Of a DNA stretch of 37,068 nt, positions 2,216-37,068 are shown one piece after another. The stretch is from the NCBI GenBank assembly GCA_022791775.1, contig JAAVZT010000029.1:1-37068 (forward strand). Reading direction: 5' to 3'. Under the pieces are notes generated by a model. It was not told the DNA's origin and made no database searches. It saw only the letters and a program-made list of their open reading frames with translations. The stretch is from Bacilli bacterium (GTDB taxonomy: Bacteria; Bacillota_I; Bacilli_A; RF39; UBA660). Both the position numbers and the translations under genes were made by a program. How positions within the stretch are numbered: position 1 is the stretch's first letter; every line of letters begins with the position of its first letter.

Positions 2216-4078
2216 ATGAAAAACGAGAAAAAAATAATCGGCATTGGAATATTTCTTTTTGTGTTTGTAATCTTAGTTATTAGTAGTTCTTATGCTTATT
2301 GGCGGTTTCAAAAAAGTCAGTTAAATGCGAATGTGATTTCTAGTAAATGTTTTGATTTAACTTTTGATGAAACGAGAGGGAGTGATATTACTCTTTTAAA
2401 GACTTATCCAATTAGTGAGGAAGAGGGACAAAAAACAAGCCCATATATAGCGAAATTAGTTAATAAATGTGATAATGATTTAACATATCATTTTAATTTA
2501 GAAATATTGTCTGCGACGACATTAAAAGAAGAATTTGTAAAAGTACAATTTCAAAATGAATTAAAATTTTTAAATCTTTTTTCTTCTACAGATATTTATG
2601 TGAAGGGAGCTAAAAAAGCATATGAATTAGAAAATGGGGTAATTGGCGCGCATGAAACGAAGGAATTTCAACTCCGCCTTTGGCTAGATCAAAATGCTCC
2701 AGCTGAAGAGGCGATGTCAAAAGTTTTTGATTCGAAAGTTAGTGTGGTTGCAAGTTATCAAGATTATCGAGGAAAATATACTGAAGATATTTTGAATGGA
2801 GCAGATCCTGTACTAGCTGATGGTTTAGTTCCTGTTACAATTGCAGAGGATGGAACTGTTAATAAGGCTAATTTAGAAATGGAATGGTATCGTTATCAAA
2901 ATAAAAGGTGGGCGAATGCTGTTATTTTGGTTGATGAAAATACGAGTTATCAAAATGGAGAAGTGATACCAGAAAGCAATATTGAATCTTATTTTGTGTG
3001 GATTCCAAGATATCGTTATCAAATTTTAGATGATGGATTTTATACAGAACTTTCTCAAAATAGTGTCAGTAGAGCTTCTGAAATTGCAATTGTATTTGAA
3101 AATAGAGATGTTAAAATTAGTTCTGGAAAACGAAAAGGAGAATGGTTAACGCATCCGGCCTTTACTTCGTTTGATGTAAATGGAATGTGGGTCGGTAAGT
3201 TTGAAACAAGTTATGGTGATGGCAGTTATGAAGATAGTCAAAAAAATGAAATTGCTCCAGAAAAAGTTCAAATTAAACCAAATGTTGCGAGTTGGCGAGG
3301 AATAAATGTTGCGAATGCATTTCAGACCAGCTATCAGTATCAAAGAAATTTAGATTCTCATATGATGAAGAATACCGAATGGGGAGCAGTTGCATATTTA
3401 TCGCATAGTAAATATGGCATTCAAGATTCTGTTCGATTGAATAATACTTTTATTACTGGAGTGGCTGCTTTAAAAGAACCAACTTGTGGATACACTGGAA
3501 ATAATGAAGAATGTAATAAATATTCGAATACTTTTTTAGAATCTCTTTCTGCTCATTATAATACTTCTACAGGTTATTTAGCGAGTACGACAGGGAATAT
3601 TACTGGTATTTATGATATGAGTGGAGGAGCTTGGGAGTATGTAATGGGTGTGATGGCAGATAAAAATGGCCGTCCAATGAGTGGGCGCAGTAGTCAAGTT
3701 CATTCGGGATTTAGTGGAAGTTTAGGATGTCCTACTTGTGATAGTGATACTAGTGGTATTACGGAAATTACAAATGGCATTGATTTTCCTGAATCAAAAT
3801 ATTATGATTTATACGGTTATAATGAAAATACTTTGGTTTATAATCGGCGGTTATTGGGTGATGCAACTGGAGAACTTGGAGGTTTTATGAAAAATGAATG
3901 GAATCGATATATTAGTTCATGGTATCAAGATCATGCTGAATTTTTAAAACATTGGTATCCTTTCTTTTTCCGAAGTGGCTTAATTTCTTATGGAACAGGA
4001 GCTGGAATTTTCTTCTTTAGTGCAACAAGTGGTCTTGGAAATTCAGGTGGTTCTTATCGAATTGTATTAGCATATTAA
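2216..4078 (+). CDS. Membrane-anchored surface protein, SYAYW N-domain plus FGE/C-type-lectin-like C-domain (copy 3)
   Basis: This 620-residue paralog of the preceding gene begins at ATG 2216 after a strong AGGGAGGTG site. The N-terminal helix ends in SYAYW; the beta domain carries KCFDLTF and NKCD Cys motifs. The shared middle segment includes ILNGADPVLADGLVPVTIA, WANAVIL and YFVWIPRYRYQI. The C-terminal domain has NTEWGAVAYLSHSKYG, the more canonical YDMSGGAWEYVMG (compare GNVWEW of FGE-family folds) and SYRIVLAY. Residues between conserved anchors near the C-terminus differ strongly from copies 1 and 2, as expected for a ligand-facing surface. FGE-fold proteins include enzymes, but active-site cysteines are not evident, so a binding or structural role is more likely. 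Co-transcribed with copy 2 and closed by a bidirectional terminator. Confidence 0.87.
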   Translation: MKNEKKIIGIGIFLFVFVILVISSSYAYWRFQKSQLNANVISSKCFDLTFDETRGSDITLLKTYPISEEEGQKTSPYIAKLVNKCDNDLTYHFNLEILSATTLKEEFVKVQFQNELKFLNLFSSTDIYVKGAKKAYELENGVIGAHETKEFQLRLWLDQNAPAEEAMSKVFDSKVSVVASYQDYRGKYTEDILNGADPVLADGLVPVTIAEDGTVNKANLEMEWYRYQNKRWANAVILVDENTSYQNGEVIPESNIESYFVWIPRYRYQILDDGFYTELSQNSVSRASEIAIVFENRDVKISSGKRKGEWLTHPAFTSFDVNGMWVGKFETSYGDGSYEDSQKNEIAPEKVQIKPNVASWRGINVANAFQTSYQYQRNLDSHMMKNTEWGAVAYLSHSKYGIQDSVRLNNTFITGVAALKEPTCGYTGNNEECNKYSNTFLESLSAHYNTSTGYLASTTGNITGIYDMSGGAWEYVMGVMADKNGRPMSGRSSQVHSGFSGSLGCPTCDSDTSGITEITNGIDFPESKYYDLYGYNENTLVYNRRLLGDATGELGGFMKNEWNRYISSWYQDHAEFLKHWYPFFFRSGLISYGTGAGIFFFSATSGLGNSGGSYRIVLAY

Positions 4079-4134: not shown

Positions 4135-5679
4135 TTAGGAAATTAATTTGGCATGGACTACAAATCTTTGATTGTCTCCTGTACAGGTCGAGAGAGTTAA
4201 GATATGATCGTCGTTATTTATTTCTATTTCAAAATTATGAATACTTCGGTTTTTGACTAAATTAATATAATTTTGGAAATCTTCTTCCGTGGCAAAGTTG
4301 GTCATTAAATAATCCGAAGTTTTATCTATCTTATATATGGAAAATATTTTCCAATTCATTGTTTCGTACATCGTATTAAAAGAAATCGTCGTATTTTCAT
4401 CATTTGTATACCAACTTCGATTGGCTACTTTGTGGAGTGTTCCAAACATGACTCCGCTATAGTACATGTTGTGTCCATAAATAATGGTGTTTTTGTTTAA
4501 TTCTTTTTCATTGTTGCGATAATCCATATAAATCCAACCATTTATATCATAATCTTTATATAAATTATTTTTTAGATAGAATTCATTGTCTTGACCTTTT
4601 ACTACAGGATAATCGATATTCGTATTATTTATTTTTAACCAACCGATAGTATCTTCGTTTATGGCTAGTAAAGAAGCAATATAGTTATTCTTGATTATAT
4701 GATCGTCATCATTTTTAATATTACTGTCTAGAACGTTGGATTGGATAATTTGTTCAATATTTTCTTGAATGGAAGTTACTTTTTTCATGGCAATGTAGTT
4801 TCTAGTTCCAATATAAGCTATAACAGAACCGACTAGAATAAAAATAATAATTCCACATATTTTCATAGTATTGATGATGAGTTGTTTGAATATATTTTCT
4901 TTTAAGTAATCTTCAGAGTAGTTTAAAGTGCATTTTAAATGATATTTTTTCCAATTTTTATTTAATTCTTTTAAATATTCCACTTGATTATCTTGAATGA
5001 TTTGACCAGGGATTTGAATGAGAACGCCCTTTAAATGGTTTTCTTTTAATGTTTTTAGTAAAAATTCAATATCGTCTTTTATAAAACTGCTAATGCGAAT
5101 GTTTTTTAAATACCGATTTATTTTTGTAAAGCTGATAAAATCTATTCGGTCTTCTTCGCTTAGAGGAAGTGTAATTCTAACATTCGTTTTATAATAAATT
5201 TTCGAATATTGAATTAAATTATTTTCTTGCATAAAGTTACTAATATAAAAAAATTCACTTCGTGATTCGACTTTAATATAATTTCGATCGAGCATTTCTA
5301 GCATATAAGATGGAATGTTATAACAGTTTACTGTTTTAATGTAATTGGAAGCAATAATTTCTTCACAGATCGTAAAAGTGATGGTTTCATCACTTTTAAT
5401 TTCAAGAGTTTCAATGGATGAAATATTTTTAAAAAAGGGTAAGAGAAAACTCGTTAGTTCATTATTATCTATCACTACTTTGGTTAATTTTTTCATTTCG
5501 CATAGTTCTTTAATAAATAAGGAGACGATTTTTTGATTATTTTTTAAATAATCTAAGCCGAAAATCAGTTCGTTATCACTAATAATGTTGGTATTAATTA
5601 AATCTTCCCGCATTTTATGGTGATTTTTGTAAGATAGTTTTAGATTATTATTTTCAATGCTGATTAAAACTTTTTTCAT
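4135..5679 (-). CDS. Class B sortase with a large LRR-like N-terminal cytosolic extension
   Basis: This is a 514-residue cysteine transpeptidase that should join sorting-signal proteins to the cell envelope. The C-terminal 190 residues are a class B sortase domain: catalytic His403 in YGHNM, Cys499 in TLSTCTG and Arg505 in QRFVV. A single membrane helix lies at about 271-291. Ordinary SrtB proteins are about 220-260 residues with only a short tail before the helix; here about 265 residues precede it. That extension has spaced Leu/Ile strands (for example LTKVVIDNNELTS and IETLEIKSDE) suggesting a leucine-rich-repeat-like cytosolic domain. The start ATG at 5679 has AAGGTGG upstream. It is divergent from a gene whose product carries an NPTTG sorting signal, its likely substrate. 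The sortase call is firm; the role of the extension is unknown. Confidence 0.92.
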   Translation of the reverse strand: MKKVLISIENNNLKLSYKNHHKMREDLINTNIISDNELIFGLDYLKNNQKIVSLFIKELCEMKKLTKVVIDNNELTSFLLPFFKNISSIETLEIKSDETITFTICEEIIASNYIKTVNCYNIPSYMLEMLDRNYIKVESRSEFFYISNFMQENNLIQYSKIYYKTNVRITLPLSEEDRIDFISFTKINRYLKNIRISSFIKDDIEFLLKTLKENHLKGVLIQIPGQIIQDNQVEYLKELNKNWKKYHLKCTLNYSEDYLKENIFKQLIINTMKICGIIIFILVGSVIAYIGTRNYIAMKKVTSIQENIEQIIQSNVLDSNIKNDDDHIIKNNYIASLLAINEDTIGWLKINNTNIDYPVVKGQDNEFYLKNNLYKDYDINGWIYMDYRNNEKELNKNTIIYGHNMYYSGVMFGTLHKVANRSWYTNDENTTISFNTMYETMNWKIFSIYKIDKTSDYLMTNFATEEDFQNYINLVKNRSIHNFEIEINNDDHILTLSTCTGDNQRFVVHAKLIS

Positions 5680-5711
5680 CCTTTACCACCTTTTTTCTTA
5701 TTGTTACCAAT

Positions 5712-5828: not shown

Positions 5829-6494
5829 ATGAAAAAGAAAATTTTCGGATTTGTGTTGGCACTAGTATTTGTAATGCTTCCAACTATAGTTCGAGCAGCA
5901 GATTTTGGTGGTAGTATTTTCTTATCTCAAGATGCAAATATGACTGTTACGACTTTAAATCCAGGTGTAACGGTTACTTGTCCTAAGGATGCATCTGGAG
6001 ATAATGCAACATGTTATATTGGTCTTCGGGTAACTAGTGGAACAGCAAAGAATTTATCAGTTAAAGCAACTCTTACCAATTTAAAGTATGATTCAATTGA
6101 AGAAATGAATGGTTGGACCTATACATCTTCTCCAACGATAAGTGGAAATACAGTTACATTTAATTTAGCTAATCGTACTGGAACAACTGCTGGAAATACT
6201 ATTTTAGTTGCCAAAGTTAGCTTTAAAGTAAATAATAAAGCACAAAATTGTAATTTGACATTAACTCCACTTGATAATCCAACAACTACACCAGAATCTT
6301 GTCGGGTAGAAGGCGGAAAATATTATTGTGAAAATGGAGTAGAATGTTCTAAAGAAGATTATGAAAAAAAATGTATTCCAGAAAATCCAACTACTGGTAG
6401 TGCAGTTCCATATCTTGTTGTATTAGGAGGACTTGGAATTGCTGGAGTGTTTTATTTTGTAACACGTAAAAAAGCAAAGATTTATCATGTATAA
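5829..6494 (+). CDS. Secreted, sortase-anchored protein with NPTTG sorting signal
   Basis: This 221-residue exported protein has a signal peptide (KKK, hydrophobic core, cleavage probably after VRA at residue 23). The C-terminus is a classic cell-wall sorting signal: NPTTG at 186-190, a hydrophobic segment, then a basic tail (TRKKAK). The body (about 25-150) is Thr/Asn/Val-rich with alternating strands and looks like an Ig- or cohesin-like beta sandwich. Three Cys pairs are possible (TCPKDASGDNATC, NC...SC, YYCENGVEC). NPxTG resembles the NPQTN-class signals of class B sortases, and the divergent neighbour is such a sortase, so the two probably form a substrate/enzyme pair. RBS AAAAGAGG lies upstream. 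The ligand or role on the cell surface is not evident. Confidence 0.88.
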   Translation: MKKKIFGFVLALVFVMLPTIVRAADFGGSIFLSQDANMTVTTLNPGVTVTCPKDASGDNATCYIGLRVTSGTAKNLSVKATLTNLKYDSIEEMNGWTYTSSPTISGNTVTFNLANRTGTTAGNTILVAKVSFKVNNKAQNCNLTLTPLDNPTTTPESCRVEGGKYYCENGVECSKEDYEKKCIPENPTTGSAVPYLVVLGGLGIAGVFYFVTRKKAKIYHV

Positions 6495-9219: not shown

Positions 9220-9226
9220 CTTTTGA

Positions 9227-9255
9227 TTGCAGATTTGAACTATGGATGGTACAAT
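9227..9255 (+). promoter_or_regulatory. Promoter of the HEAT/GT2 operon
   Basis: TTGCAG (9227-9232), 17 bp, TACAAT (9250-9255) preceded by TGG, an extended -10. It lies 30 bp before the chosen start 9286, supporting that start over the upstream in-frame TTG at 9223. Confidence 0.6.
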
Positions 9256-9285
9256 AAATTATATATTTTTTGGTGGGTGTTTAAA

Positions 9286-10392
9286 ATGCAGTTTATGGAG
9301 TCATTCATTATTCTTTATATAGGGTTAGTGTGTTTTCTTATTTTATTTCATTTATTTGCAGGTATTCAAACGAAATTTCGTTCTGTTTGGAAGCGAAAAG
9401 AAAAGTATTTTTATAAAATGATTGTAGGAGAAGAACTCCAACGGTTAAATCGAAAAAAAGGAGTTTCTACTCATCATTTATCTCTTTTAAAGCGGCAATT
9501 GTTTCATGTCAATCATTTGTTATTGTTTGAAGATGTTTTAGTTGAATTTCAGAAGAAAAATAGTGGTTTAGTGGCATCTTATTGTAATCAAATTTCAGAG
9601 ATTTTTCCAGAATTGGCAAATCTGTATCGTGAGAAAAGTTCGATGCATAAAGCTTATTTTACTCATTTTTTGTCTATTTTTCCAGAAGTTATGCAACAGG
9701 ATGATAATTGTATTGAGTATGCTATGATGCATTTTGTTTATGATACTTCGGTCTATTGTCGAGAAAATGCTATGTTATTTTTTTATCATAAGGGAATTGT
9801 AAGTCAGATCATCAATTCATTAAAAAAAATTAGTACTCGTAATCTGTATTATAGTCCGAAACTTTTGGCTGATGATTTAGGAGAATTTCAAGGAGATCAG
9901 AACCTATTAGTTCAATCTTTATTAACAGAATTTGACTCGTTTCATGATTTAATTCAGTTAGGTATCATGAATTATTTTCGGTTTCAAAAAGTGGATTGTA
10001 TAGAAGTTATTTATCAAAAGTTTAAACAAGGTAAATATCATAAAGAAGTCATTCTTTCGATGATTCGTTACTTTGCTACTTTTCGTTATAAATATGTAAA
10101 AGATGATTTATTAAAAATTATGAAAGATACAGATGAAAGCCGTTATGAATATCGTTTAGTTAGCGCTTTTGCTTTATCACGTTATGATGAAAAAAAGGTT
10201 CGTTCCGTGTTAATTGATTCTCTTTGTGATCGAAATTGGTATGTAAGAAAGAATGCAGCATTGTCTCTTTCTAAAATGGATTTGACACAAGAAGATTTTG
10301 ATCATGTAAAAGCTTTACATGATCCTTATGGTCAAGAAATGTTTTATTATATGTGGCAGGATGCTAAAAATCGGAAGGAGGAGAATCTATGA
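9286..10392 (+). CDS. Membrane-anchored HEAT-repeat-like protein, partner of the GT2-like protein
   Basis: This 368-residue protein begins with a membrane helix (about residues 5-27), then basic and alpha-helical sequence. The C-terminal third holds HEAT/PBS-lyase-like helical repeats, for example YEYRLVSAFALSRYDEKKV followed by a VRKNAALSLSKMDL unit. ATG 9286 is chosen because GGTGGGTG lies 7 bases upstream and the promoter -10 overlaps the region upstream. Its stop overlaps the next gene's ATG (ATGA), so the two are translationally coupled. HEAT-repeat membrane proteins next to family 2 glycosyltransferases occur in other bacteria, where the pair is presumed to work in envelope polysaccharide synthesis. 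The repeats probably mediate protein contacts. The exact role is unknown. Confidence 0.75.
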   Translation: MQFMESFIILYIGLVCFLILFHLFAGIQTKFRSVWKRKEKYFYKMIVGEELQRLNRKKGVSTHHLSLLKRQLFHVNHLLLFEDVLVEFQKKNSGLVASYCNQISEIFPELANLYREKSSMHKAYFTHFLSIFPEVMQQDDNCIEYAMMHFVYDTSVYCRENAMLFFYHKGIVSQIINSLKKISTRNLYYSPKLLADDLGEFQGDQNLLVQSLLTEFDSFHDLIQLGIMNYFRFQKVDCIEVIYQKFKQGKYHKEVILSMIRYFATFRYKYVKDDLLKIMKDTDESRYEYRLVSAFALSRYDEKKVRSVLIDSLCDRNWYVRKNAALSLSKMDLTQEDFDHVKALHDPYGQEMFYYMWQDAKNRKEENL

Positions 10393-11717
10393 TTCAAAAT
10401 GAAAAAATAATATCCATTTTTTTCTGGCTTTTTTGGGGTGTTTTCCTTTATTTTGTTGTTTATTCCATTTGGGTATTTTGTTCTTATTTTCATTTTTATT
10501 TTAAAATCAAACGTCATCAGAAACATTTACTTTTTCAAAATCGTCTTTCTCATGAGTATTTTGTCCCTATTTCCATCATTGTTGCTACTTATAATGAGGT
10601 CAATGGACTGGTTTCTTCCATCGAATCACTTTGTCATTTAAATTATAAATTGTATGAAATTATTATTGTAGATGATGGGTCTACCGATCAAACCATTTCT
10701 AAATTAGTTCATCAATTTCATTTAAAAAAAATTGAGCGACCGATTCGTAAGATTTTAAAAAGTAAAGAAGTTGTAGAGATTTATGAATCAAGTAGTTTAC
10801 CTATTAAGATTATGTTATTAAAGAAGGAACATGGAGGAATGGCTGATGCTTATCATGCGGGAATTAATATTTCAACTTATCCCTATGTTACTTGTCTTAA
10901 GGTAAATCAACGACTTTCGAAAGATTCTCTTTCTAATTTAGCTCGACCTATTTTAGAGAATGAACATATCGTTATGTGTTCTGGAGTTACACAAATTGGG
11001 TATCAAGATGAAGAAGAAGCACTTTATTTTAGAACTTTTTATGAGTGGTTACAATTATTTTATTATGAAAGAAAGTCCATTACTAATATTGAACAATTGG
11101 GTATACCAACATTTCATTTGTTTCAAAAAAGTCTTGTTATGAAAGTTAGAGGATTTGATAAAGGAAGTATAGGAGAAAATTTTGAATTAGCGCGAAAAAT
11201 AGAAACATATATGATTCAAAAAGGAGAAAAAATTGCAAAACGAAATGTATATGATGCAATTTGTTTTTGGAAAGTTCCTTCTACTATGAATGGCTTTATT
11301 CGTCAGGAAAAGAAATATCGTTTGGGCTTTGTTCGGTGTTTTAAAAAACATAAAAAGATATCGAATTCCAAATTTAAAAATTTAGTATTTTCCATTTATT
11401 ATTATCTTTATGAACGATTTATGCCTATTTTCTTTCTTTGTAGTGTTTTGATTGGAATCTTTGGTTTAATTTATCATTTATTTTCTTGGCCCATTTTCTT
11501 TTCTTTTCTTGGAAGTTATTTCTTTTTGCTTGCCGTATTATCATTTTTTACCTTTTTAACACAGGTAAAATCCTTAGGTATTTCCTTGCAAGTTTCTACT
11601 TTAGTAGCTGGTTTTATATTTTGTTTTATTGAAGTAATCTGTATGCCATGGGTAATGCTTCTTCGTTTTTGTTTTCCTTTTTTCTTTCATGAAAAAAAGA
11701 AAGTTTCTTCTGTTTAA
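10389..11717 (+). CDS. GT2-family membrane glycosyltransferase-like protein with degenerate catalytic motifs
   Basis: This 442-residue protein has the architecture of processive family 2 glycosyltransferases: N-terminal helix (8-35), GT-A domain (about 56-315), and three to four C-terminal helices. The nucleotide-binding start is intact (PISIIVATYNE, IIIVDDGSTDQT, EHGGMADAYHAGI). The catalytic sites are not: where relatives have a DAD-type DxD motif it has KVN (171-173), TED is replaced by GEN (262-264), and QxxRW is replaced by QEKKY (306-310). It therefore looks like a pseudo-glycosyltransferase, perhaps a regulator or a binding scaffold together with the HEAT protein it overlaps by 4 bp. 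The reading frame is intact and long, so it is not a decaying gene. The fold assignment is confident; loss of activity is inferred from alignment by eye. Confidence 0.82.
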   Translation: MIQNEKIISIFFWLFWGVFLYFVVYSIWVFCSYFHFYFKIKRHQKHLLFQNRLSHEYFVPISIIVATYNEVNGLVSSIESLCHLNYKLYEIIIVDDGSTDQTISKLVHQFHLKKIERPIRKILKSKEVVEIYESSSLPIKIMLLKKEHGGMADAYHAGINISTYPYVTCLKVNQRLSKDSLSNLARPILENEHIVMCSGVTQIGYQDEEEALYFRTFYEWLQLFYYERKSITNIEQLGIPTFHLFQKSLVMKVRGFDKGSIGENFELARKIETYMIQKGEKIAKRNVYDAICFWKVPSTMNGFIRQEKKYRLGFVRCFKKHKKISNSKFKNLVFSIYYYLYERFMPIFFLCSVLIGIFGLIYHLFSWPIFFSFLGSYFFLLAVLSFFTFLTQVKSLGISLQVSTLVAGFIFCFIEVICMPWVMLLRFCFPFFFHEKKKVSSV

Positions 11718-11830: not shown

Positions 11831-13786
11831 ATGCAAAAGAAAAAATGGGTTATAGGTATTGTCATTTGTTGTGCGATGTTTTTTGCTTTTGGGATAAGTT
11901 ATGCTTTATGGCAAAAAAACGAATTTCAGAAGGAAATGAATCAAATAACAAGTGGATGTTTTTCTTTAACTTTCCAAAATGAGAGTAAAGGCATTATGTT
12001 AGATCAAGAGTTTCCTCTGTTGACAACCGATGGCCTTAATTTAACGCCATACACGTTCACGATTACAAATACTTGTAGCGTTTTTGCTTCTTTTGATATT
12101 ACTTTGAATACTTTATTAACTAGTACATTAGATTCTAAATACGTAGCAGTTGTCTTAGATCGGAATGCAGTAAAGACGTTTGAACAATATGATTTGTTAG
12201 ATACATTAGAAGGGTATCAAGAGAGTCGATTGTTGCAAAGTAGTTCATTATCTCCTAATGATAGTGAAACGTTTCATTTAAGAATATGGATGGACGAAAA
12301 TGTTGGACCTAAAGATGCCGAAGCTATGGATAAAATCTTTCAAGCTAAGATTGCAGTAATTGCAAGACCAAGTACGTATAGTCCAGTGGCATTAGGTTTT
12401 GATACTTTAGCAGAAGCTATGCTTGTGAATGAATATCAATCGGCCAATATGGAGCATGCGAAAGAAAAAATAGAAACTAAACAAGCACCTGATTTTAGTA
12501 AAACAGCTCCGATTATCGATTGGAAAGAAAAACAAGAGGAAAATATAACACTTCTTACCATTACGATGCCTCATCCAGAAAAAGTTGGAGAATATGATGG
12601 TTTTGATAATATTGAAAAAAGTTATTTACGTGTTTCCAATCATTATAATTTTAATGCAGAAACAGGAAAATATGATTTAATAGATCCCTTTTTAGTCGAT
12701 CCTACAGCGATTACGGATTATGATACGAAAAATTACTATTTTTGTTATGCAGGAACTAGTATTAGTGTAGATGATCGGGTGGATTCTTATCAAGTTACGA
12801 CAAATTGTTCAGAACTTTATCGTATATCAAGTACTTCGAAAGAGGAGGCTTTTGAGACTGGACCATCTGGAAAAGTATTTCAAATGATTCGTTATAATTT
12901 AAGTTCTTACAAATATTATCAGCAAGAAGTTGTAAGTGATAAATCTGATAAGGGCTTATATCTGACTTTAGATGATAATGGTGAAAGTTATTATTATCGT
13001 GGAAGTGTTAGTAATAATTATGTCAAATTTGCAGGATTTTACTGGCGAATCATTCGTTTAAATGGGGATGGAAGTGTAAGACTTTTATATGCGGGAGAGA
13101 CTCCTGATGCTAGTGGTTTATATTTATCTATTCAGAATCAGGCTTCTCATTTTAATTGGAATAAGGATTTGCCAGGATATGTAGGATATATGTATGGAAA
13201 TAATTTAGATACATATGAGAATGCGAGTAAAAATGAGCAAGATAGCACGATTAAAACAATATTAGATCAATGGTATCAACAAAATATTTTTGAAAAAGGA
13301 TATCATGATAAAATAGCCGATAGTATTTTTTGTAATGATCGTGAAATTTATAGTGGAGATGGATACAGTACTAATCTGCCAACTTATTATCAAACACATA
13401 ATCGGATGATTACAGAAAAAAATCCTACTTATTTTTGTTCACAGCGAAATGATCGTTTTACAGTAAGTGAAGAAAAAGGAAATGGAGCATTAACGTATCC
13501 AATTGGACTTATTACATCAGATGAATTAATGTATGCGGGAATGGTAGAGGGATATTTAAATAAGTTAAGTTATGTCTTTTCTTCTTTTCGATATTGGACG
13601 ATGTCTCCAGGTTTGTTTAACAATGGGGCCAGTGCTGCGATGGGAATTGATTTTCATGAATCTGGTCAATTTGGTTTTGATTACGTTGTATTTGGTTATG
13701 GAGTACGTGCAGTTATTAATATTCGACCGGAAGTTAAGATTACAAGTGGAATTGGAACTGCAAATGATCCGTTTGTAATTCCTTAA
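11831..13786 (+). CDS. Membrane-anchored surface protein, SYALW N-domain plus WRI/YWTMSP-type C-domain (paralog 1)
   Basis: This 651-residue protein starts at ATG 11831 after AAGGAG. A membrane helix (about 6-24) ends in GISYALW. Residues 30-190 are homologous to the N-domain of the genes at 336 and 2216, including the Cys pair GCFSLTF and TNTCS and LTPYTFTITN. The rest is unrelated to those genes. It contains FAGFYWRIIRLNGDGSVRLLY, IADSIFCNDRE, YPIGLITSDELMYAG, YWTMSP and the ending GVRAVINIRPEVKITSGIGTANDPF in shorter pieces. Proteins with this WRI...YWTMSP...VRPVINL pattern are common as large surface proteins in uncultured gut Firmicutes; function is not established. No sorting signal is present, so the N-terminal helix should hold it in the membrane. 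Monocistronic, with its own terminator. Confidence 0.85.
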   Translation: MQKKKWVIGIVICCAMFFAFGISYALWQKNEFQKEMNQITSGCFSLTFQNESKGIMLDQEFPLLTTDGLNLTPYTFTITNTCSVFASFDITLNTLLTSTLDSKYVAVVLDRNAVKTFEQYDLLDTLEGYQESRLLQSSSLSPNDSETFHLRIWMDENVGPKDAEAMDKIFQAKIAVIARPSTYSPVALGFDTLAEAMLVNEYQSANMEHAKEKIETKQAPDFSKTAPIIDWKEKQEENITLLTITMPHPEKVGEYDGFDNIEKSYLRVSNHYNFNAETGKYDLIDPFLVDPTAITDYDTKNYYFCYAGTSISVDDRVDSYQVTTNCSELYRISSTSKEEAFETGPSGKVFQMIRYNLSSYKYYQQEVVSDKSDKGLYLTLDDNGESYYYRGSVSNNYVKFAGFYWRIIRLNGDGSVRLLYAGETPDASGLYLSIQNQASHFNWNKDLPGYVGYMYGNNLDTYENASKNEQDSTIKTILDQWYQQNIFEKGYHDKIADSIFCNDREIYSGDGYSTNLPTYYQTHNRMITEKNPTYFCSQRNDRFTVSEEKGNGALTYPIGLITSDELMYAGMVEGYLNKLSYVFSSFRYWTMSPGLFNNGASAAMGIDFHESGQFGFDYVVFGYGVRAVINIRPEVKITSGIGTANDPFVIP

Positions 13787-13800
13787 AATATTAACAATTT

Positions 13801-13825
13801 AAAAGCAATTTTTTTGCTTTTTTTT
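13801..13825 (+). terminator. Intrinsic terminator between the two paralogs
   Basis: Stem AAAAGCAA (13801-13808) and TTGCTTTT (13814-13821), loop TTTTT, followed by more T residues. Its T-tract overlaps the -35 element of the next promoter. Confidence 0.85.
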
Positions 13826-13852
13826 GTATATCATTTGTAGATATGTTATAAT
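13824..13852 (+). promoter_or_regulatory. Promoter of surface protein gene at 13896
   Basis: TTGTAT (13824-13829), 17 bp, TATAAT (13847-13852) with TGT before it. Transcription should begin near 13859, so the in-frame ATGs before 13896 (13824 and 13851) are not starts. Confidence 0.75.
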
Positions 13853-13895
13853 GAAAAAAATAGAGAAAAATTATTTATTTTTAAGGAGTCGTAAT

Positions 13896-15866
13896 ATGCA
13901 AAAGAAAAAATGGATGATTGGTATTGTTATTAGTTTTGTTTTGGTTTTGATTCTTGGAATAAGTTATGCTTATTGGTATGTGACCAAATCACAAGAAGGA
14001 ATGAATCAAGTTCTTAGTGGATGTTTTTCTCTAGCTTTGCAAAGTGATAATAAAGGAATTGAGTTAGCGAAAGATCATCCAATATTAACGACAGAAGGTC
14101 TAAATTTAACACCCTATACATTTACTATTACAAATACTTGTAGTATTTTTGCATCATTTGATATAACTTTAAATACGTTATTAACTAGTACGTTAAATTC
14201 CAAATATGTAGCAGTTGTATTAGATCGAAATGCAGTGAGAACTTTTGATCAATATGATTTATTAGAAACGTTAGAAGGCTATCAAGAAAGCCGGTTATTA
14301 CAAAGTGGATCATTATCACCAAATGATAGTGAGACCTTTAATTTAAGAATATGGATGGATGAAGACGTAGGACCTGAGGATATGGATGCTATGAATAAAA
14401 TCTTTCAAGCTAAGATTGCAGTAATTGGAAGACCAAGTACATATAGTCCAGTGGAGCAGGGATTTGATACTTTAGCAGAAGCAATGCTTGTGAATGAATA
14501 TCAATCGACTAGTGTGGAGCATGCTAAAGGAAAAATAAAAACGAAGCAAGCTCCTGATTTTAGTAAGCCAGCTCCTACTGTAGAATGGCAAGAAGCTCAT
14601 GGAATTGCAACTTGGACTCCACGTCCTACTATGCCTCATCCAGATAAAGTTGGAGAGTATAATGGCTTTGATAAAATAGAAAAAAGTTATTTACGCTTTT
14701 CGCATAGTTATGGTTTTAATAGAGAAACTGGACGTTATCATTTAATCGATTCTTTTTTAGCAGATCCCAGGACGATTACGGATTTTGATACGAAAGATTA
14801 TTATTATTGTGGTGGAGGGACCGATATTAGTGCCAATGATTGGTTAACAGTATATCAAGATTATCAAAATTGTTCTTCTATCGTTAAAGTATCTGGTGTG
14901 ATAGCGAAGGATTTGGAACAGACAGGCCCATCTGGAACTAAATTTCAATTGATTGAATATAGAATACAAGGAAAAAATTATACACAGTTGGAGAAAGAAA
15001 GTGATAAATCAGATAAAGGTTTATATATGGCAATGGATGATAATGGAGAGAGTTTTTATTATCGGGGAAGTGTGAATAATAATTATGTCAAATTTGCAGG
15101 ATTTTACTGGCGAATCATTCGTTTAAATGGGGATGGAAGTGTAAGACTTTTATATGCAGGAGAGACTCCTGATGCAGAAGGTCAAAATTTATTTATAAAT
15201 AAGCAAAAAAATGCCTATAATAATCCCGCAAATTTACCTGGATATATAGGTTATATGTACGGACAAAATATGGATACTTATGAAAATGCGAGTAAGAATG
15301 AAATAAATAGTTCTATGAAAACGATATTGGATAATTGGTATCGAAAAAATATGGTTGAAAAGGGGTATAGTGATAAAATAGCGGATAGTATTTTTTGTAA
15401 TGATCGAGAACTACAAAGTGGTGATGGTGTTTCGGTCACTAAAAGAACATATTATAAGCCGTATCAGAGATTGGTTTATGATAAAAAACCAACCTTGATG
15501 TGTCATCAAAAAGGAGATCAATTTACAGTAAGTGAAGAAAAAGGAAATGGAGCCTTAACTTATCCGATTGGCCTTATTACTACAGATGAACTTATGTATG
15601 CGGGAATTACATCTGGAACAGATAGTTATTTAAATCGTTTAAGTTATGTTTCTACTACTAATTCTTATTGGACTATGTCATCCAGTTGGTTTAATAATGA
15701 TTCAGGAGCTGCTCAGGGTATGTATATGGATTCAGAGGGGTGTATTACAGTATGGTATCCCGTTTCTTATCCACATGGTATTCGTGCAGTCATCAATATT
15801 CGACCTGAAGTCAAGATTACAAGTGGAATTGGAACTGCCAATGATCCTTTTGTTGTAGCAGATTAA
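13896..15866 (+). CDS. Membrane-anchored surface protein, SYAYW N-domain plus WRI/YWTMSS-type C-domain (paralog 2)
   Basis: This 656-residue close paralog of the gene at 11831 has the same layout: membrane helix ending GISYAYW, N-domain with GCFSLAL and TNTCS, then the WRIIRLNGDGSVRLLY, YPIGLITTDELMYAG, YWTMSS and GIRAVINIRPEVKITSG modules. ATG 13896 is chosen because AAGGAG precedes it and the N-terminus then matches the paralog (MQKKKW). The segment between about residues 205 and 390 and the region after the WRI block differ most. One block of 99 bp is nearly identical to the paralog while flanks differ at synonymous sites, suggesting recombination between the copies. Both copies have separate promoters and terminators, so they may be expressed independently. 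Function unknown; probably a host- or glycan-facing surface protein. Confidence 0.85.
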   Translation: MQKKKWMIGIVISFVLVLILGISYAYWYVTKSQEGMNQVLSGCFSLALQSDNKGIELAKDHPILTTEGLNLTPYTFTITNTCSIFASFDITLNTLLTSTLNSKYVAVVLDRNAVRTFDQYDLLETLEGYQESRLLQSGSLSPNDSETFNLRIWMDEDVGPEDMDAMNKIFQAKIAVIGRPSTYSPVEQGFDTLAEAMLVNEYQSTSVEHAKGKIKTKQAPDFSKPAPTVEWQEAHGIATWTPRPTMPHPDKVGEYNGFDKIEKSYLRFSHSYGFNRETGRYHLIDSFLADPRTITDFDTKDYYYCGGGTDISANDWLTVYQDYQNCSSIVKVSGVIAKDLEQTGPSGTKFQLIEYRIQGKNYTQLEKESDKSDKGLYMAMDDNGESFYYRGSVNNNYVKFAGFYWRIIRLNGDGSVRLLYAGETPDAEGQNLFINKQKNAYNNPANLPGYIGYMYGQNMDTYENASKNEINSSMKTILDNWYRKNMVEKGYSDKIADSIFCNDRELQSGDGVSVTKRTYYKPYQRLVYDKKPTLMCHQKGDQFTVSEEKGNGALTYPIGLITTDELMYAGITSGTDSYLNRLSYVSTTNSYWTMSSSWFNNDSGAAQGMYMDSEGCITVWYPVSYPHGIRAVINIRPEVKITSGIGTANDPFVVAD

Positions 15867-18322: not shown

Positions 18323-18351
18323 AAAAAGATAAGTTTTGGTCTTATCTTTTT
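18323..18351. terminator. Bidirectional terminator between ATPase and cotJC
   Basis: A perfect 11-bp stem AAAAAGATAAG (18323-18333) and CTTATCTTTTT (18341-18351) with a 7-base loop serves both convergent genes and overlaps the cotJC stop codon. Confidence 0.9.
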
Positions 18352-18907
18352 AATATCCTAATTTTTTATAATGATTGTATAGTTCTTGGAAGCGGTTAAA
18401 ATGAACGACTTCTCGTTGACGGAGCCATAAGAGTGGGCCGATTAAGTCTTCATCATCGGTTAAGTCAATTAAGTTTTCATAAACAGCTCTTGCTTTTTGT
18501 TCTGCAGCCATGTCTTCTTGGATATCTGCGATGACATCTCCAGTAACAGCGAAGTAGCTTACGGTGAATGGAACTCCATTTGAATCAGTTGGATAAATTC
18601 CTTTTCCGTGTTCTGTGAACATGCTTCCTAGACCACAAGCTTCTAATTCTTCGATGGTAGCGTCTTTTGTTAATTGATGAACCATTGTGGCAATCATTTC
18701 GCAATGTCCTAATTCTTCCGTAGCGATATCATTCAATAATGCTTTCCCTTTTTCATCTGGCATATTAAATTTTTGTGAGAAGTAACGCATGGAAGCAGCT
18801 AGTTCTCCATTTGGACCACCGAATTGTGTAATTAAATATTTTGCCATTTTCACATCTTTTTTTTGAATGTTAATTGGATAATTGGTGTGTTTGATATATT
18901 TAAACAT
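18350..18907 (-). CDS. cotJC: CotJC spore-coat protein, manganese-catalase-like
   Basis: This 185-residue protein matches Bacillus CotJC along its length: AKYLITQFGGPNGELAASMRYF, TEELGHCEMIATMVHQLTKDAT, NGVPFTVSYF, GDVIADIQEDMAAEQKARAVY and REVVHFNRF. The Glu and His residues in EELGH and REVVH are those of the di-manganese ferritin-like fold of manganese catalases. ATG 18907 is chosen because AGGAGAT lies just upstream; an upstream in-frame ATG at 19066 would place 53 unrelated residues before the conserved start. It overlaps the preceding cotJAB gene by 8 bp, so translation is coupled. In Bacillus the CotJ proteins are inner-coat components made in the mother cell; whether this organism forms spores cannot be seen here. 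Confidence 0.93.
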   Translation of the reverse strand: MFKYIKHTNYPINIQKKDVKMAKYLITQFGGPNGELAASMRYFSQKFNMPDEKGKALLNDIATEELGHCEMIATMVHQLTKDATIEELEACGLGSMFTEHGKGIYPTDSNGVPFTVSYFAVTGDVIADIQEDMAAEQKARAVYENLIDLTDDEDLIGPLLWLRQREVVHFNRFQELYNHYKKLGY

Positions 18908-19340
18908 ACATATCTCCTTCCTTATCATCCCAAGGCCACGGATTATTTTCCCATTCATAGGTTTTAAAATTTGCATTACTGATGGTAAGTGGTCCATAAG
19001 AATTGATATAGTCTTGTTGTGCTTTTTTTCCTTCCTCAATATATCTTTGATATAAACGATAGGCATCTATATCGTCTGGATGAATATCTAAGTATAAATT
19101 TAAATCGGTGATGGCAAAGGCATATTCCATTACTTTTAACATTTTTTGTTCTCGGTCATTTTTGGGAACTAATTTGACTGCGTTAAAGTTACGGTAGGGA
19201 ATATATTCATTTGTCATCATATTTCCTTTTTGGAATCCTTGATTTGGATTTGCAAATTTATTGCGATCAATTTCTAATTGGAATTCGCTTCCGGGAATTT
19301 CAAAAAAAGAAAAATCAAAATCGTTGTTATTAAATAACAT
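18900..19340 (-). CDS. CotJA-CotJB fusion spore-coat protein
   Basis: This 146-residue protein joins two proteins that are separate in Bacillus. Residues about 30-50 (NQGFQKGNMMTNEYIPYRNF) resemble the G-x-GT-F-PELYRPY end of CotJA. Residues 65-140 are clearly CotJB: an AITDLNLYLDIHPDDIDA block, YIEEGKKAQQDYINSYGPL, and the ending WENNPWPWD. The first 30 residues are acidic and Phe-rich and are not recognised. The start ATG 19340 has AAAGGGG upstream. It is followed by cotJC with an 8-bp overlap, keeping the cotJABC order. The CotJB part is secure; the CotJA part is judged by eye from a short motif. Confidence 0.82.
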   Translation of the reverse strand: MLFNNNDFDFSFFEIPGSEFQLEIDRNKFANPNQGFQKGNMMTNEYIPYRNFNAVKLVPKNDREQKMLKVMEYAFAITDLNLYLDIHPDDIDAYRLYQRYIEEGKKAQQDYINSYGPLTISNANFKTYEWENNPWPWDDKEGDMYV

Positions 19341-36537: not shown

Positions 36538-37068
36538 TTATGGTGTAGATGGACCAGTAGGACCTTGTGGAATTGTTAAATTTAAGATAAAGTTTGGAGC
36601 ACTTCCTGTTATAGTAGCAGCGGCTGCAGAACCTGGGGCACCTGTTGTAACAGTACCGATCGTGATATTAGGTGTAGTTCCTGTTGGACCAGTAGGACCA
36701 GTAGGACCAGTAGCACCAGTAATACCCTGAGGACCGGTAGGACCAGTAGCACCCTGAGGACCGGTAGGACCAGTAGCACCCTGAGGACCAGTGGCACCAG
36801 TAATACCCTGAGGACCGGTAGGACCAGTAGCGCCCTGAGGACCGGTAGGACCAGTAGCGCCCTGAGGACCAGTGGCACCAGTAATACCTTGAGGACCAGT
36901 AGCACCAGTAGCGCCCTGAGGACCAGTAGCACCAGTAGCACCCTGAGGACCAGTGGCACCAGTAGCACCCTGAGGACCAGTAGCACCAGTAGCGCCCAGA
37001 GGACCAGTGGCACCAGTAGCACCCTGAGGACCGGTAGGACCAGTAGCGCCCTGAGGACCAGTGGCACC
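36538..37068 (-). CDS. Collagen-like Gly-X-Y repeat protein, C-terminal part (5' end outside window)
   Basis: On the minus strand the frame is open for 176 residues from the window edge to TAA at 36538. About 120 residues are uninterrupted Gly-X-Y triplets, mostly GAT, GPQ, GPT and GIT (for example [16 protein letters not shown]), the pattern of bacterial collagen-like proteins such as the BclA-type exosporium filaments. Then comes a short non-repeat tail: [23 protein letters not shown], in pieces, [20 protein letters not shown] and STP, typical of Firmicute collagen-like proteins. Thr in the Y position is a usual glycosylation site. The repeat region has noticeably more G and C than the rest of the window, set by Gly, Pro and Ala codons. 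The N-terminus, which would show how it is exported or anchored, is not in the window. Confidence 0.88.

Follow-up and report, generated by a model that had tools for sequence, protein, structure and literature searches.

Why would a class B sortase carry, ahead of its membrane helix, a folded domain that is longer than the enzyme itself? The question is raised by a gene from a Bacilli genome (GTDB order RF39, assembly GCA_022791775.1) that lies at 4135..5679 on the reverse strand of a stretch of 37,068 nucleotides, referred to here as the window. The gene is an intact ORF of 514 codons with an ATG start, and in its full length it occurs at one place only in its own genome.

Architecture of the Fused Sortase

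Several lines of evidence identify the C-terminal part of the protein (residues 334–513; 4141..4680, reverse strand) as a class B sortase. It scores 167.1 bits against TIGR03064, above the curated cut-off of 153.75, and matches both the Pfam Sortase model (E = 1.3e-15) and the sequences of solved sortase B structures in the PDB (E down to 6e-34). A Foldseek search with the full-length model likewise returns sortase B structures, with E values down to 1.5e-20, and in this model a helix (residues 465–478) between the strands 442–452 and 493–498 corresponds to the class B helix ahead of the strand that bears the catalytic cysteine. The catalytic residues are found exactly where a sequence-only reading of this DNA, which had also assigned the enzyme to class B, had placed them: His403 (codon 4471..4473), Cys499 in the motif TLSTC (4183..4185), and Arg505 (4165..4167), all on the reverse strand and each invariant in 68 of 68 relatives. 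Known class B sortases (TIGR03064; SrtB of S. aureus, B. anthracis, and C. difficile) share this catalytic domain with its His/Cys/Arg triad, the helix ahead of the catalytic-Cys strand, and an NPxT[GN]-like motif encoded in a neighboring gene, but have a very short cytosolic N-terminus, whereas here a folded domain exceeding the enzyme in length precedes the membrane helix. The linkage of the fused gene to genes for NPTTG/NPxTG proteins suggests that its putative cleavage site is of the NPxT[GN] type.

Hydropathy identifies residues ~269–291 (4807..4875, reverse strand) as the sole strongly hydrophobic segment of the 514-aa protein, and in the model this membrane helix is part of a long predicted helix that spans residues 256–314. 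Because SrtB has the topology of a type II membrane protein, and given an extracellular enzyme, the extension, which itself lacks a signal peptide, should lie in the cytosol (N-in, C-out). We delimit this N-terminal domain to residues 1–264 (4888..5679, reverse strand) on the basis of AlphaFold2, Foldseek, and conservation. When Pfam and NCBIfam were searched, no model covered these residues.

Translation of the sortase starts at residue 1, where the ATG is preceded at a distance of 6 nt by a good ribosome-binding site, AGGTGG (5686..5691, reverse strand). The possibility that the extension is an artefact, either because translation begins near residue 265 or because of an assembly or frame error, found nothing in its favor, although M272 is an in-frame ATG that would yield a sortase without the extension. 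No ribosome-binding site is found ahead of M272, and the same fusion occurs in 99 genomes of the family without internal stops. The ribosome-binding sites and the full-length conservation together rule out an internal start near residue 265, and we regard the chance of any such artefact as negligible.

A cytosolic extension as such has a precedent. SrtE1 of Streptomyces coelicolor, a class E sortase, requires its cytosolic extension for function in vivo; in the relatives of SrtE1 the extension comprises 100–200 residues, varies considerably in sequence, and carries acidic and basic patches, and such extensions are reported to be absent in nearly all other sortases (PMC5148588). The premise of the sequence-only reading that sortases need no cytosolic domain was thus mistaken. 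The protein described here resembles SrtE1 in its long N-terminal extension ahead of the membrane helix (residues 1–265) but belongs to class B rather than class E, and the extension is predicted to form a folded, conserved domain rather than a varying, patchy tail. Our survey of the literature, which left subscription papers mostly uncovered, found no sortase with an LRR and no class B sortase with a cytosolic domain. What is new here is the usual divergent arrangement of the sortase gene with a gene for a secreted protein that has an NPxTG-type sorting signal, together with the cytosolic tail that these presumed substrates share.

Distribution and Conservation of the Fusion

The fusion is present in all seven genomes of the genus, including the one under study; the other six copies are 68–75% identical to it, and that of genome G006 is interrupted by a contig end. 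With residues 1–264 as the query, 99 of 291 genomes in the same GTDB family gave matches, representing 51 of 150 genera, with identities down to ~24%. These relatives, among them Candidatus Ventrenecus, are Bacilli assembled from metagenomes. The matches lie nearly always in open frames of ~515–570 aa that have no internal stops, and every frame that was fetched with the domain also holds the sortase. A profile search of genomes drawn from the order was positive in 123 of 288, and in a class-wide sample of 395 genomes the domain was confined to the same family, with the exception of a single marginal match, itself partial (E = 0.002). In a published comparison at the level of orders, srtA/B are missing from RFN20 and ML615J-28 but not from RF39 (PMC10868615).

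N188 shows no variation among 68 distinct proteins, and Y44, N48, N153, D180, F184, L191, Y254, N262, and Q266 are nearly invariant as well. The median pairwise identity is 34% in the N-terminal domain, 22% in the membrane/linker stretch, and 52% in the sortase. Because the domain is better conserved than the linker, we conclude that it is under constraint. That it is nevertheless more variable than the catalytic domain, and that a long helix (256–314) surrounds the membrane segment, would be compatible with a structural role only, in which the domain stabilizes or oligomerizes the sortase in the membrane and recognizes nothing. We consider this improbable, given that the non-fused class B sortases of the family manage without the domain, that the domain persists without a sortase in one genus (g67), and that several of its positions are invariant or nearly so.

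In a FastTree phylogeny of the sortase domains, all 68 fused sequences are placed apart from all 46 non-fused ones, with low support (0.38) for the separating edge; this topology fits one single fusion event. A phage origin was rejected, as phage matches show less than 60% identity and none spans 80% of the query. The five phage matches listed all fall inside residues 260–514, that is, outside the extension.

Class B sortases without the fusion also occur widely in this family, and a genome often encodes several of them. They belong to the same catalytic family as the fused enzyme, often share a genome with it, and often stand next to a sorting-signal protein. Unlike the fused enzyme, they are mostly 235–290 aa in length and lack the domain, and their substrates often carry NAQTS/NPxTS motifs and tails such as KKKIA. 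At loci L156, L157, L163, L164, L172, and L182, non-fused class B sortases are found beside NAQTSS/NPQTSS rather than NPxTG proteins; these proteins end in short basic tails (KKKIA, KKKEIA) and represent a distinct variant of the sorting signal. The family also contains class B sortases with long N-terminal extensions of a different kind, namely L151/L187 (820 aa), L188 (656 aa), and L189 (590 aa), in which no Pfam match was found outside the sortase.

Copies of the domain that have a C-terminal membrane anchor and no sortase are encoded in genus g67 at L134 (4001–4870), L133 (3914–4795), and L135 (3857–4741, where the contig stops just after the domain gene). They lie beside prsA in L133 and L134 and are divergent from mraZ-rsmH-ftsL in L134 and L135, all gene names having been assigned by eye. 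Thus, the domain is able to occur on a polypeptide that lacks a sortase.

Predicted Fold of the N-Terminal Domain

Foldseek searches with the full-length model were swamped by sortases, and the domain was therefore modeled alone. AlphaFold2 predicts its fold with confidence (pLDDT 87.8, pTM 0.75): an N-terminal beta hairpin is followed by about eight strand-helix units, with predicted strands near residues 67, 91, 116, 136, 166, 193, 219, and 248. The best Foldseek matches are LRR proteins of the RI type (tropomodulin, leiomodin, Skp2, and NLRP3/NLRP9/NLRC4), with a best E value of 6e-4 and probabilities up to 0.99, yet with global TM-scores of only ~0.25. As in RI-type LRR proteins, the predicted strand-helix units recur ~20–30 residues apart. 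An LxxLxL pattern, with a hydrophobic occupancy of 90% or more at every anchor position, is present at four of the predicted strands (67, 91, 116, and 193), and the remaining four of the eight carry phi-x-phi.

Unlike RI-type LRR proteins, the domain has neither a match to an LRR family by sequence nor a significant internal repeat. No LRR family of Pfam matched any of 17 members even at E <= 1, a profile search of PDB sequences found no LRR, and a profile (HH) self-comparison of the domain gave no significant internal repeats. A plain LRR assignment by sequence was thus rejected; weak sequence matches to Cas1 (E = 0.0015) and to a plant LRR-kinase (E = 0.42) were not recovered by profile search either. 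Given this lack of a sequence match and the low TM-scores, we refer to the predicted domain as LRR-like and do not file it as a member of an LRR family. The same term had been used in the sequence-only reading, and it is upheld at the level of the predicted fold, by AlphaFold2 and Foldseek, but not by sequence. The 265-residue extension before the membrane helix is real; its occurrence in 6 of 6 other genomes of the genus and in 99 of 291 of the family, together with a pLDDT of ~88, shows that it is neither unconserved nor disordered. We describe the protein as a class B sortase whose N-terminal fusion partner is a folded, LRR-like cytosolic domain that has been conserved within a single family of gut Bacilli.

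The positions that form the concave face of a classical LRR are mostly variable. Conservation is instead concentrated at strand ends (Y120, R140, and E142), at N153 and D180/N188, and in the membrane-proximal stretch Y254–Q266. The nearly invariant polar residues among these (N153, D180, N188, Y254, and N262) might be taken to indicate a regulatory sensor that responds to a ligand or signaling protein and switches the activity or expression of the sortase, for example during growth or sporulation, and spore-coat-like genes do occur in the same window (18350–19340). We give this idea little credence: no known sensory or enzymatic fold matched the domain by sequence or structure, N188 may have a structural explanation as the counterpart of the Asn ahead of the strand in RI-type LRRs, and the link to sporulation consists of proximity at the scale of the window only.

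A Divergent Gene for a Presumed Substrate and Its Cytosolic Tail

Transcribed divergently from the sortase gene is a gene (5829..6494, forward strand) for a 221-aa secreted protein with a signal peptide and a C-terminal sorting signal (LPXTG_anchor 16.7 bits, cut-off 15.9), which we presume to be the substrate of the fused sortase. Its C-terminus consists of the motif NPTTG (6384..6398, forward strand; located by pattern search), a membrane segment, and the residues RKKAKIYHV, of which the last five, KIYHV (6477..6491, forward strand), were recognized as the cytosolic tail by comparison of tail patterns. This arrangement recurs in the relatives. Among the 46 fused loci that have an upstream neighbor, the immediate one is a divergent secreted protein with a sorting signal in 30, compared with 9 of 267 other nearby ORFs.

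A search of the own genome by pattern and by profile found two C-terminal NPxTG signals; the second (NPQTG...KKKNRFL) is located elsewhere and, ending in NRFL, falls outside the strict tail pattern described below. The genome also encodes a second sortase domain, which is of another type. At locus L018 (380–1884) of this genome, the second sortase-like gene (191 aa) directly follows the gene for a protein that ends in a VPNTY-type signal, and a VPDTY-type protein is encoded further upstream, which suggests a separate set of sortase and substrates.

Sortase substrates carry a sorting motif, a membrane segment, and a charged cytoplasmic tail, in that order (PMC4155245, PMC10107303), and their last residues remain cytosolic until cleavage. 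The prevailing view takes this tail to be a simple stop-transfer anchor with a positive charge. Beside the fused sortases, however, the tails that follow the NPxTG-like motifs share the consensus K-phi-x-[K/H/R/N]-[I/V]-COOH. Counted as K-phi-x-[KRHNQT]-[IVM] at the C-terminal end, a pattern that was drawn from this same first set, it is present in 31 of 34 fusion-linked substrates and in none of 14 substrates that genomes of this family encode next to a non-fused class B sortase (Fisher p = 1.4e-9, a value that overstates independence because the loci are related). The last residue is I, V, or M in 33 of the 34 linked to the fusion, whereas tails beside non-fused class B sortases read, for example, KKKIA, KKVLN, or KKAKK. 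A held-out set of 37 further fusions includes a divergent substrate in 20 cases and no such gene within 2 kb in the other 17; the pattern is found in 17 of these 20 substrates, and 19 of the 20 end in I, V, or M.

The 34 fusion-linked substrates fall into ~11 unrelated clusters of ectodomains, and the 14 contrasting ones into 10. The tail recurs across these clusters and is thus retained even when the displayed domain changes. Among the contrasting substrates, two (at L182 and L186) come from genomes that carry the fusion too (G159 and G062, respectively), and their lack of the tail suggests that it is the sortase, and not the genome, with which the tail is associated. The same ending is seen in unlinked large surface proteins of fusion genomes (frames of 636–1135 aa), such as KFYRI in a 1135-aa frame and KIFKI in a 1064-aa frame. 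A profile of the sorting signal, built with the tail included, matches in 46 of 99 fusion genomes at E <= 1e-6, compared with 1 of 192 others. That sole exception is G187, a 64%-complete genome of genus g49, in which another member (G280) has the fusion. At E <= 1e-3, the same profile found no sorting signal in 38 of the 99 fusion genomes. The association between tail and fusion, established by computation, is a correlation.

A Proposed Model for Two-Sided Reading of the Sorting Signal

Where a cytosolic domain and a fitting cytosolic tail are found together, direct capture is the most economical interpretation. We propose, with a probability of about 0.45 and on the basis of this correlation, that the cytosolic domain binds the tail of the substrate and hands the substrate over to the sortase to which the domain is fused. 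The protein would be inserted as a type II membrane protein, with residues 1–265 in the cytosol, one helix in the membrane, and the sortase outside. After export by Sec, the short C-terminal tail of the substrate would stay in the cytosol, where the LRR-like domain would capture the sequence K-phi-x-[basic]-[I/V]-COOH (KIYHV in the present case) and so hold the substrate beside the enzyme. On the outside, Cys499 would then cut the NPxTG motif and attach the protein to the wall, so that the sorting signal would be read twice, once on each side of the membrane. Both the binding of the tail and any effect on anchoring are what we infer here. Because the concave positions of the LRR-like fold are mostly variable, a peptide site is expected only at the strand ends (Y120/R140/E142) or in Y254–Q266.

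The main rival to tail capture is a docking or localization adaptor, in which the domain binds the Sec translocon, the divisome, or the elongation machinery and so places the sortase at sites of wall synthesis; the substrate tail would then be a separate habit of stop-transfer sequences in this lineage. Sortases of cocci do co-localize with SecA and the septum by means that are not known (PMC12445088), the cytoplasmic extension of SrtE1 is needed in vivo with other proteins as its proposed partners (PMC5148588), and the sortase-less, tail-anchored domain of genus g67 (~290 aa) is encoded near prsA and mraZ-rsmH-ftsL. Docking alone, however, leaves unexplained why the last five residues differ between the substrates of fused and non-fused sortases, even within one genome, and inspection of the fused loci revealed no conserved cell-division neighbor. 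We regard docking as a real possibility, if on balance an unlikely one. The suggestion made from the sequence alone, that the extension may regulate or localize wall anchoring, was too vague: a role in control is plausible, and the genomic context and the tail favor recognition of the substrate, with localization as the rival.

We also hypothesize, still more tentatively, that capture of the tail would let a sortase recognize its sorting signal on the cytosolic as well as the outer side of the membrane and so sort the substrates of parallel class B sortases within one cell. If true, the choice of substrates by sortases would have a second, intracellular code, which would provide a simple answer to how substrates are kept apart in cells with multiple sortases, and surface display would gain a new handle. 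It would also give a testable function to a conserved domain without a Pfam family in uncultured gut Bacilli.

Other Genes of the Window

The window also contains two tandem pairs of genes for large secreted paralogues (315–2204 with 2216–4078, and 11831–13786 with 13824–15866). The encoded proteins have SYAYW-type N-termini, which we take to be a SipW/TasA-like signal, and the product of 2216–4078 shows a weak FGE-sulfatase-like match at its C-terminus that is below the cut-off (E = 0.013). A HEAT-repeat membrane protein is encoded at 9223–10392 and overlaps the next gene, a glycosyltransferase (10389–11717). The spore-coat-like genes at 18350–19340 resemble CotJC/CotJB by eye, and a collagen-like protein with GATGPTG repeats is encoded at 36538–37068. 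These spore-coat-like and collagen-like genes are possibly remains of sporulation or of an exosporium in a genome of 1.1 Mb.
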